NCBI GenBank assembly: GCA_017427715.1
Contig: JAFRSF010000023.1
Span: forward strand, 1 to 37,614
Direction of reading: 5' to 3'
Length of the DNA stretch: 37,614 nucleotides
Source: Alphaproteobacteria bacterium
Lineage (GTDB): Bacteria > Pseudomonadota > Alphaproteobacteria > Rs-D84
In this document: one piece after another, positions 25,804 to 29,044 of the stretch
Position numbering within the stretch: the stretch's first letter is position 1
How the letters are laid out: the number at the start of each line of letters is the position of its first letter
Translations under genes and position numbers: made by a program
The notes under the pieces: generated by a model
What the model was told of the DNA's origin: nothing
What the model saw: the letters and a program-made list of their open reading frames with translations, nothing else
Databases searched by the model: none

Positions 25804-26256
25804 ATGAATCTTAAAGAAGATATTAGCAGTTGGGTTAAAAATTATCTTAAATCTAAAATTATCAAAAACAACATTAACCAATTTAGTAAAAATAATGCAG
25901 AAATATGTTCTGAAAGAGAATATTGGGATAATTATATAAAGACATTATATTTTGAAAAAAAAGCAGAAGAAGCGAAAAAGTCCGATTTTGGTGATTTGAA
26001 TAAACAGGCCTTTGAAAATCGGTCTACATCTTGTTTTTATTGCGATCCAAACGGACGTTATTCTTTACAAAAATGTGTAAATGTTCAAAATGACGGTTTT
26101 ATTATAAGGGATTGTTGTTCGCATTGTTCACATTTTTCGACAATACAAGATTATTCATTATTAGCAAAAGAATTAGTTAATATAAACAAAAAGAAACAAC
26201 AATCAGCGGACAATCTGCTTTCTGGTTTAATGTTCTGGAAACACAAAAATAGATAG
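25804..26256 (+). CDS. Small Cys-rich (zinc-ribbon-like) protein, unknown
   Basis: I do not recognise the family. The 150-residue protein starts 3 nt after lepA, suggesting cotranscription. The N-terminal two-thirds is charged and probably helical (Lys/Asn/Glu-rich). A Cys/His cluster follows: TSCFYC (about 75-80), KCVNV (about 92), and DCCSHCSH (about 104-111). This CxxC...C...CCxxCxH arrangement looks like a zinc ribbon. The C-terminus is helical and basic, ending FWKHKNR. No signal peptide or TM is seen. It could bind nucleic acid or act as a partner of the neighbouring recombinase-like protein 8 nt downstream, but the sequence alone does not prove either. Confidence 0.65.
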   Translation: MNLKEDISSWVKNYLKSKIIKNNINQFSKNNAEICSEREYWDNYIKTLYFEKKAEEAKKSDFGDLNKQAFENRSTSCFYCDPNGRYSLQKCVNVQNDGFIIRDCCSHCSHFSTIQDYSLLAKELVNINKKKQQSADNLLSGLMFWKHKNR

Positions 26257-26264
26257 GTATTAAA

Positions 26265-27263
26265 ATGGCGCATCAATTCTTTTTTAACACGTACATTCTT
26301 GACAATTTACCGTTGCCTGAAAAAGGTTTTGATGTCGTTCAAGATTTATCTGAACCGCGTTTGCGTATGTATATCACTCAACGCGGTGTTAAAAGTTTTT
26401 TTGTGCGTAAACGCGTAAATGGTATTGATAAAAGAATCTTAATTGGAAAATATCCAGATATAGATATAGAAGATGCACGCGCCAAAGTAAATGAAGTGTT
26501 AGACGAAGTTTGTAAAAAAATGCCTGTACGCAGAAAAAAAATTATATTCAAAGATTTTATAGATTTATATCTGAATAACAAAGTTAGACGTGGTGAAGAT
26601 TCTTTGATGAAATTAAAACGTGCTGTAAAATTACATTTTAAAGATTTGTACGATTTTAATATTCAAGATTTAACAGTTTCTAATTTGCAAAATGTTTTGA
26701 ATAATATTCAGGGGCGGGCAATGGCTGCCAGGATGCAGGAATTATTGCAAAGTGTATTTAATTATGCGCTGTCTATGGGGTATATTAAGAATAATCCGAT
26801 GAATGATATGCCAAAAATTACAGTTGTTCGTCGTATCAGAACATTAAGAAAATCAGGATTGCAAAAATTGATTTCCGTAATAGACAAAGAAAAAAATCTC
26901 AATTTACGTGCCGCATTTTTGATGTTGGTTTATGGTTTTGCACCAAAAAATAAAATATTTAAAATGCGCTGGGAAGATTTAGATTTTAACCATGATATGT
27001 GGAGTGATATGCCTTTGTCAAACAAAGCAGTATTATTATTGCAAAATATTCCACAAAATTGTGAATGGGTATTTACAGGGATTGGTCGTTCACATTTGAC
27101 TGATCCGCGGGTTGCCTGGAAACGTGTTGTTACTGTGGCTGGGTTGCCTGATGTGACAATGGATGATGTTCACAAGTTTTTGATGCATGCGTTGGTTTGG
27201 GATTCAGACAAAGACAAATTGCGTGAAAATATGAACGAAGTTTTGTCTGATTTATTGTTGTAA
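26265..27263 (+). CDS. Tyrosine-recombinase-like protein lacking catalytic residues
   Basis: The protein is 332 residues with the architecture of a phage-type integrase. An N-terminal arm domain (about 26-82; RLRMYITQRGVKSFFVRKRVNG, IGKYPDIDIEDARAKVNEV) resembles the DUF4102/AP2-like arm. A SAM-like core-binding domain follows at about 93-180 and a catalytic-fold region from about 195. Motif I should hold a catalytic Arg, but reads VYGFAPKNKIFKMRWEDLD. The HxxR motif reads HKFL (303-306). There is no Tyr at all after Y223, so the nucleophile is missing. The frame is intact, so it is probably a domesticated DNA-binding protein or an expressed relic. Neighbours are core genes (lepA, acpP), with no tRNA or att site next to it. 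Confidence 0.8.
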   Translation: MAHQFFFNTYILDNLPLPEKGFDVVQDLSEPRLRMYITQRGVKSFFVRKRVNGIDKRILIGKYPDIDIEDARAKVNEVLDEVCKKMPVRRKKIIFKDFIDLYLNNKVRRGEDSLMKLKRAVKLHFKDLYDFNIQDLTVSNLQNVLNNIQGRAMAARMQELLQSVFNYALSMGYIKNNPMNDMPKITVVRRIRTLRKSGLQKLISVIDKEKNLNLRAAFLMLVYGFAPKNKIFKMRWEDLDFNHDMWSDMPLSNKAVLLLQNIPQNCEWVFTGIGRSHLTDPRVAWKRVVTVAGLPDVTMDDVHKFLMHALVWDSDKDKLRENMNEVLSDLLL

Positions 27264-27295
27264 TATATTATGAATGAAAGTCAAGCATTTGTTAT

Positions 27296-27371
27296 CGTTT
27301 GTTATAATTTCTTGACAGGTCGTATTAAAAATGATACCTTATAGGGCAAGTTGCCTGTGTAATAACAAACG
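27296..27371. promoter_or_regulatory. Inverted repeats and TTGACA in the acpP leader
   Basis: CGTTTGTTAT (27296-27305) and ATAACAAACG (27362-27371) are perfect 10-bp inverted copies. Between them lie TTGACA (27312-27317), a possible -10 around 27335-27343, and the palindrome GGCAAGTTGCC (27345-27355). The layout suggests promoter control of acpP, but no regulator is identified. Confidence 0.35.
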
Positions 27372-27401: not shown

Positions 27402-27668
27402 ATGACAACTTTTGAAAAAGTGAAAAAAATTGTGTGTGAAAAATTGGGTGTAGATGAATCCAAAGTGACAGAAAAAGCGTCTTTCGTTAATGATTTGGGT
27501 GCAGATTCTTTGGATGTTGTTGAATTTGTTATGGAAGTTGAAAAAGAATTCAACATCACAATTCCTGATGAAGAAGCAACAAAATTGGCAACTGTGGGTG
27601 ATGCAGTTAAATATATTGATGCACACACAAATACAGGTAAAGTAGTTGCAGACAAAAAAGCTGCCTAG
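27402..27668 (+). CDS. acpP: Acyl carrier protein
   Basis: ACP carries growing acyl chains on a phosphopantetheine arm for fatty-acid and lipid synthesis. The 88-residue acidic protein has the four-helix ACP pattern with the attachment motif GADSLDVVE, Ser at 36. It is slightly longer than the usual 78 owing to a short Lys/Ala tail ([10 protein letters not shown]). AAAGGAT precedes the ATG. It is followed by a strong terminator and then fabF, so the two are adjacent, but fabF probably relies partly on its own promoter. Confidence 0.97.
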
Positions 27669-27793: not shown

Positions 27794-29044
27794 ATGAAAA
27801 AAATAGTTATTACAGGTATGGGGATTGTTTGCCCTGTGGGTACAGGAATTGATTTTGCGTGGAAAAATATATTGAACGGAAAAAGTGGTATTCGTAAAAT
27901 TACTGAATTCGATACAACTGATATTGCGTCCAAAATTGCGGGCATTCCACAACGTGGAACCGAACCAGGTGATTTTAATCCTGATGCGGTTATTGAACCC
28001 AAAGAACAACGTAAAATGGACAAAAGTATAATGTATGGTTTGGTTGCTGCTAATGAAGCGGTTATTGATGCAGGTTTGTTGGAATATGATGGTGATAAAA
28101 ACCGCATAGGTGTATCAGTGGGCAGCGGTGTTGGTGGTTTATCAACTATTGCGGATACTTACAAAGATATTTTGGAAAATGGAACAAGGTTTGTTAGTCC
28201 TTTCTTTGTGCCTAAATCTGTTGTGAATATGACTGCTGGGTATATTTCTATTAAGTACGGTTTTGGTGGTCCGAATCTTGCGATGGCAACTGCGTGTGCA
28301 ACTGGATCACACGCCATTGCAGAAGGTGCTGCGATTATTGAACGCGGGGATGCTGATGTTATGATTTGTGGTGGAACAGAAGCGGCAATTTGTCCATTAG
28401 GAATGATAGGTTTTGGTGCTTTGCGCGCATTAAGTACCAGAAATGATGACCCAGAACACGCTTCGCGTCCGTGGGATAAAGACAGAGATGGTTTTGTTAT
28501 GGGTGAAGGAGCGGGTATTCTTGTTTTAGAAGAATATGAACATGCAAAGGCACGTGGTGCCAAGATTTATGCAGAAGTTGCTGGTTTTGGTATGACTGCA
28601 GACGCGTATCATATTACAGCCCCAGCACCAAATGGCGAAGGTGGCAAACGTGCAATGCAGATTGCTTTGGACAAAGCAGGGTTAAAACCGTCTGATATAG
28701 ATTATATCAATGCACATGGAACATCTACTGGATTGGGTGATGTTGGTGAATTAATTGCGGTCAAAGATTTATTTAAGGGTACAAATGTATGCATGTCTTC
28801 AACCAAATCAATGACTGGACATTTATTGGGGGCGGCCGGTGCTATAGAGGCAATTTTTTGTATCTTAGCGATTCGTGATAATATTGTGCCGCCAACAATA
28901 AATCTTGAAAACCCAATAGAAGAAGTTGGTGATTTCAATTTAGTTCCGAACAAAGCACAACAAAGAAATGTGGATGCTGTGTTAAGTAATTCGTTTGGTT
29001 TCGGTGGCACAAATGCCAGTTTGATTTTAAAAAATGTCAAATAA
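27794..29044 (+). CDS. fabF: 3-oxoacyl-ACP synthase II
   Basis: This condensing enzyme extends acyl-ACP with malonyl-ACP in fatty-acid synthesis. The 416-residue length fits FabF. The Cys-His-His catalytic triad is visible: ATACATGSH (C168), INAHGTST (H308) and TGHLLGAAG (H343). A glycine-rich end (NSFGFGGTNASLI) matches thiolase-fold KAS enzymes. AAAGGATAAG lies upstream of the ATG. It directly follows acpP, supporting FabF over FabB. The rest of a fab cluster (fabD, fabG) is not in the window. Confidence 0.95.
   Translation: MKKIVITGMGIVCPVGTGIDFAWKNILNGKSGIRKITEFDTTDIASKIAGIPQRGTEPGDFNPDAVIEPKEQRKMDKSIMYGLVAANEAVIDAGLLEYDGDKNRIGVSVGSGVGGLSTIADTYKDILENGTRFVSPFFVPKSVVNMTAGYISIKYGFGGPNLAMATACATGSHAIAEGAAIIERGDADVMICGGTEAAICPLGMIGFGALRALSTRNDDPEHASRPWDKDRDGFVMGEGAGILVLEEYEHAKARGAKIYAEVAGFGMTADAYHITAPAPNGEGGKRAMQIALDKAGLKPSDIDYINAHGTSTGLGDVGELIAVKDLFKGTNVCMSSTKSMTGHLLGAAGAIEAIFCILAIRDNIVPPTINLENPIEEVGDFNLVPNKAQQRNVDAVLSNSFGFGGTNASLILKNVK

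Follow-up and report, generated by a model that had tools for sequence, protein, structure and literature searches.

The window, by which we mean the whole stretch of 37,614 nucleotides analysed here, comes from Candidatus Enterousia, an alphaproteobacterial genus of the order Rs-D84 with small genomes (PMC12306168). Between lepA and acpP it carries an uninterrupted open reading frame of 332 codons for a homologue of tyrosine recombinases, hereafter the dead integrase, followed by a short tandem repeat and the fatty-acid genes acpP and fabF.

26265-27263, + strand: gene for the dead tyrosine-recombinase homologue (intact frame, orthologues, alignment, dN/dS)
26265-26528, + strand: arm-type DNA-binding domain, residues 1-88, the most conserved part (PF13356, 3.4e-07; 3jtz, Z 10.7; 3rmp, Z 10.5)
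26538-26819, + strand: core-binding (SAM-like) domain, residues ~92-185 (PF22022, 1e-05; 2kj9, Z 13.9; 2kd1, Z 13.3)
26832-27260, + strand: catalytic-fold domain without an active site, residues ~190-332 (alignment; 1z19, Z 13.4; 1ae9, Z 9.3)
27289-27295, + strand: repeat 1 of the putative operator, TTGTTAT (motif conservation)
27299-27305, + strand: repeat 2 of the putative operator, likewise TTGTTAT, offset by 10 bp from repeat 1 (motif conservation)
27312-27340, + strand: predicted acpP promoter (read from the sequence; at a fixed distance in relatives)
27402-27668, + strand: acpP, acyl carrier protein, putative target (conserved neighbour)
27794-29044, + strand: fabF, 3-oxoacyl-ACP synthase II, 3' of acpP, putative co-target (conserved neighbour)

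A 150-residue Cys-rich reading frame (CFYC...CCSHC; 25804-26256) stands between lepA and the dead integrase in the window. It matches no Pfam family above cut-off and is recognisable in only four other loci, and is thus lineage-specific.

The protein shows the arm-type, core-binding and catalytic-fold domains in this order, without an active site. In a Pfam search the arm domain scored 30.8 bits with PF13356 (cut-off 27) and the core-binding and integrase domains gave weak matches; among PHROGs the protein matched the integrase family phrog_1 (E 4.7e-27). We built an AlphaFold model from 26 orthologues, with a mean pLDDT of 84, a pTM of 0.50 and an uncertain arrangement of the domains. Pfam and structure comparison together identify the core-binding plus catalytic fold of tyrosine recombinases; lambda integrase matched the model over all three domains (Z 13.4), and 3jtz superposed on the arm domain with an rmsd of 2.2 over 77 residues (Z 10.7). 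Mean column identity among orthologues is highest in the arm domain (0.82, versus 0.66 in the core-binding domain and 0.74 in the catalytic fold). Family-wide, residues Y36, R48, R50 and R57 of the arm domain reach at least 97% conservation; the first three are variable in active relatives and are candidate DNA contacts.

Active integrases from this order (L114, L115, L116, L118 and L121) served as references in an alignment of the orthologues. The catalytic residues R-K-H-R-H-Y are absent from the 113 aligned loci of the genus and from the other family genera, save for R or K at the motif-I position in 4 of 121 sequences. This position is residue 227 in the window protein, the P of GFAPK, just as a preliminary description of this DNA had it, and across the clade it is mostly P and otherwise T, S, N, Q or G. 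A 10-residue deletion after residue 246-249 has removed the beta-hairpin with the catalytic Lys. The HxxR box of active relatives aligns with D300-D-V-H303, its His changed to Asp or Asn and its Arg to His, Tyr, Asn or Thr; the HKFL that the preliminary description took for an HxxR with Leu in place of Arg begins where that Arg sits and is not itself the box. A second deletion, of ~24 residues after ~312, takes the third histidine (LGH) together with the Tyr region, so that the catalytic Tyr is indeed lost, as the reported lack of any Tyr after residue 223 had implied, but through removal of the LGH-Tyr segment and not through plain substitution. W312, close to the former Tyr region, is invariant (116 of 121 sequences). 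Both deletions and the lost residues are common to all orthologues aligned, and the alignment shows the catalytic residues to be lost or deleted, not displaced. The intact frame, integrase-like layout and lost catalysis first described are thus borne out, and on this alignment the 332-residue protein is a tyrosine-recombinase homologue that would be unable to cut DNA.

A near-invariant tandem with a 10-bp period, TTGTTAT-nnT-TTGTTAT, is located about 28 bp 3' of the gene and borders on the -35 box of acpP-fabF. The predicted acpP promoter consists of a -35 TTGACA (27312-27317), a 17-bp spacer ending in TGA and a -10 TACCTT (27335-27340); a generic promoter scan did not return it, because of the weak -10. 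The consensus of the intergenic region between the gene and acpP reads TTGTTATnnTTTGTTATAATTyCTTGACA, followed 17 bp on by an extended -10 (TGATAgTTT), and the remaining stretch is variable. Over 15 positions the motif had 0-2 mismatches in 94 of 97 distinct loci, compared with 3-7 in shuffled controls, and the repeat stands 6 bp upstream of TTGAC in 92 of these 97 loci and 5 bp upstream of it in 4. One of the three genus loci with a poor match is an artefact of annotated gene length. Autoregulation through the gene's own upstream region was considered and rejected, as the 200 bp that precede the gene contain no repeat site. TTGTTAT-like repeats were not found beside the closest active integrases (L286-L288).

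The pattern TTGTTATnnTTnGTTATA had 65 matches in 35 Enterousia genomes and none in 24 outgroup genomes, and its reversed control pattern had 3 matches over all genomes. Thirty of the 65 sites lie before acpP, 28 before lpxA and 7 in the intergenic region between mltG and an outer-membrane-protein gene, with none elsewhere. The lpxA sites are about 82-101 bp upstream on the same strand, the identity of LpxA being confirmed by TIGR01852 and NF003657; the window's own genome has two sites, at acpP and at lpxA. Most other genera of the family also carry the tandem at acpP. In one genome of the deep genus g26 (G195), CTTGTTATAACCTGTTATAAACTTGACA is retained before acpP with the gene on a different contig, which fits action in trans. 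In G191 (genus g23) and G206 (g29) the gene adjoins acpP and there is no clear tandem repeat.

Our profile search of the sister families sampled detected no orthologue. A diverged dead integrase in these families was also considered and rejected: none was found by profile, and the integrases at L276 and L277 retain the catalytic tyrosine region. Tandems of related build do occur there. In f6 and in one f2 genome, all with no orthologue detected, a tandem of similar build (TTGTAATATTTTGTAATA) precedes lpxA or acpP: the f6 genomes G039, G042 and G044 have TTGTAATATTTTGTAATA before lpxA, and G040 has TTGTAATAATTTGTAATA before acpP. The f4 genomes show a degenerate tandem before lpxA. These TTGTAAT-type loci are L278:1488 (minus strand), L226 and L228 (f6, lpxA), L208 (G040, acpP) and L212-L214 (f4, lpxA).

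We propose, with a probability of about 0.55, that the protein derives from a P4-type integrase by domestication, no longer recombines DNA and serves as a sequence-specific transcription factor for acpP-fabF and lpxA. Its arm domains would bind the pair of direct TTGTTAT repeats, which are spaced by one turn of the helix and lie immediately 5' of the -35 of acpP-fabF and of a weak lpxA promoter, and the bound protein would touch RNA polymerase, with activation more likely than repression. Fatty-acid supply (AcpP, FabF) would in this way be coupled to lipid A synthesis (LpxA, a user of acyl-ACP). Binding of the repeats by the dead integrase, the use of its arm domains and the sign of regulation are what we infer from three features: direct repeats like arm-type sites, an arm domain that is the best conserved part of the protein, and sites at an activator position, which together point to a transcription factor and more likely to an activator. 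A site that lies upstream of the -35 without overlapping it, at a fixed spacing, is typical of activators. Lambda integrase uses its arm domains to bind the arm-type sites P'1-P'2-P'3, which are short direct repeats spaced by ~10 bp; the putative operator has a similar repeat build but a different sequence, and lies at a promoter instead of an attachment site.

There is a smaller but appreciable chance that the repeats are instead the operator of another, older and order-wide transcription factor, and that the dead integrase binds elsewhere or is unrelated, standing beside acpP by conserved gene order. The TTGTAAT tandems have the same 10-bp period and precede lpxA or acpP in genomes with no detected orthologue, and the operator build may therefore predate the protein and be bound by something else; these tandems, and the two family genomes that have the gene and no tandem, hold our confidence in the transcription-factor reading near the value given. 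On the other side, the TTGTTAT form occurs only in the family possessing the gene, and the gene keeps a near-constant distance of about 130-140 bp from acpP, whereas its distance from lepA differs by over 2 kb. Moreover G194 (g26), the sole family genome with acpP assembled and the gene undetected, shows only a displaced half-site, although this genome is just 86% complete. The TTGTAAT-type tandems of the sister families possibly mark an older regulator of the same genes. That regulator would either have worked through the same operator until it was replaced, or still be active, leaving the dead integrase a bystander.

An architectural role, as a nucleoid-associated or cell-cycle protein with many low-specificity binding places, would suit a DNA-binding fold with conserved basic surface residues that is universal in a small-genome lineage. 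We regard it as improbable, given that the associated motif occurs at only one to three sites per genome, all at the promoters of a few envelope genes, and that no link to replication or division genes was found.

Orthologues are present in ~148 of 156 Enterousia genomes (151 had some match, three of these being weak matches to other integrases) and in 25 of the 27 genomes of other family genera, one as a fragment at a contig end. The eight Enterousia genomes without an orthologue are also without an assembled fabF locus; G145, G115 and others were accordingly rejected as natural knockouts, since a missing locus is uninformative. At all loci compared the gene is a single-gene insertion between lepA and acpP with no mobile-element carriage, and neither gene nor operator had a match in the viral contigs searched. 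The dead sequences form a single clade (n=121, support 0.97) that is sister to active integrases and in which two g26 sequences branch first, and their protein distances track those of LepA (r = 0.85; best of 500 permutations, 0.09) and FabF (r = 0.71). One clade with such distances indicates a single capture and inactivation followed by vertical inheritance. We would give roughly even odds to the fuller history: a single capture of a mobile-element integrase at the base of the family, loss of its active site, and its recruitment as a core transcription factor that acts on tandem operators through the arm-type domain and so keeps fatty-acid synthesis (acpP-fabF) in step with lipid A synthesis (lpxA). 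In this history it may also have taken over from an older regulator, whose operator would still be seen in the TTGTAAT tandems of the sister families.

Mobile-looking islands in this order, and in the genus itself, encode active integrases of the same subfamily that are 23-31% identical to the dead one. The dead protein might act on such enzymes as a dominant-negative inhibitor, pairing with them or occupying attachment sites and so shielding the genome from mobile elements. Such a role seems very improbable: the active relatives are patchy whereas the dead gene is universal and descends vertically, and the DNA element conserved with the gene belongs to a promoter instead of an attachment site. 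The dN/dS ratio in 14 close pairs was 0.05-0.11, in most pairs somewhat above those of fabF and lepA; the arm domain usually had the lowest dN and the core-binding domain the highest. With these values and with no stops or frameshifts in orthologues from over 100 species, pseudogene decay is ruled out, and the idea that the gene is what remains of a mobile element in decay, for which the loss of all catalytic residues might speak, can be dismissed.

The preliminary description correctly placed the gene between lepA and acpP, a position found in nearly all relatives within the genus. These, like the other genera of the family, share the same losses at this locus under purifying selection. The view given there that the gene is kept for another role agrees with the intact frame and the selection on it, and DNA binding is likely; the nucleoid or cell-cycle role that it offered is unsupported, the evidence pointing to local, promoter-specific regulation of acpP-fabF and lpxA.

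P4-like (DUF4102/PF13356) genomic-island integrases, such as the HPI integrase (3jtz/3rmp) and PHROG 1, have an identical domain order. Unlike them, the dead integrase lacks the catalytic residues, has two deletions, belongs to no island, is inherited vertically and is fixed beside acpP. MrpR and YopR of the Bacillus prophage SPbeta and SroF of phi3T also have a tyrosine-recombinase fold without recombinase function (Z 8.4, 8.1 and 8.8 with our model, respectively). MrpR has lost recombination and acts as the DNA-binding master repressor of its prophage via repeated elements (PMC10516654), a precedent for a dead tyrosine recombinase that turns into a DNA-binding regulator. These phage-borne proteins repress lytic genes and have only the core-binding and catalytic folds, with the Lys and Tyr positions retained in MrpR, whereas the dead integrase includes an arm domain and is encoded by a chromosomal core gene located at lipid genes. 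MrpR and YopR were not among the PDB sequence matches of our profile at E 1; the match is structural only, and the change of role therefore looks independent. The domesticated Crypton tyrosine recombinases are reported to be recombinase-derived proteins kept by their eukaryotic hosts (PMC3212892); they belong to a different recombinase group. MrpR and the eukaryotic Cryptons were the only cases we found in the openly accessible literature on inactive tyrosine recombinases as chromosomal regulators, and no family-wide chromosomal case was among them.

What this analysis adds is the TTGTTAT tandem at acpP-fabF and lpxA, which in its sequence is built like integrase arm-type sites. An entire family of gut bacteria with small genomes has retained a dead former mobile-element integrase next to membrane-lipid genes, of which it is probably the switch. 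If this is right, it would be a clear bacterial case of an integrase turned housekeeping regulator, with binding site, capture point and outgroups in hand, and it would suggest that an uncultured order with reduced genomes has a regulator for its supply of membrane lipids. It would also be a caution for annotation, as a gene called an integrase at a fixed core locus can in fact encode a transcription factor.

Several minor observations concern the sites and their surroundings. The motif site between mltG and the outer-membrane-protein gene lies ~200 bp from the start of the latter in the opposite orientation (loci L297, L298, L299, L154, L155, L157, L160 and L171). A variant, TTGTTATnnTTTGTGATAA, is found in two genomes (L161:5323 and L163:4455), where an acyl-CoA synthetase-like gene precedes it and a gene for a small lipoprotein follows; it is a possible extra site. 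Directly before lpxA, at L152:3963-4958, is a membrane-protein-like gene that is conserved in the genus, evolves fast (33-67% identity) and has no Pfam or NCBIfam match. One active integrase of the same subfamily (L286:4135-8314) adjoins what by eye looks like a nucleotidyltransferase-based (CBASS-like) defence set. In G192 the TTGTAATAATTTGTAATA repeat occurs twice, 579 bp apart (L279:2246 and 2825), in near-identical surroundings that look like a duplicated non-coding element.
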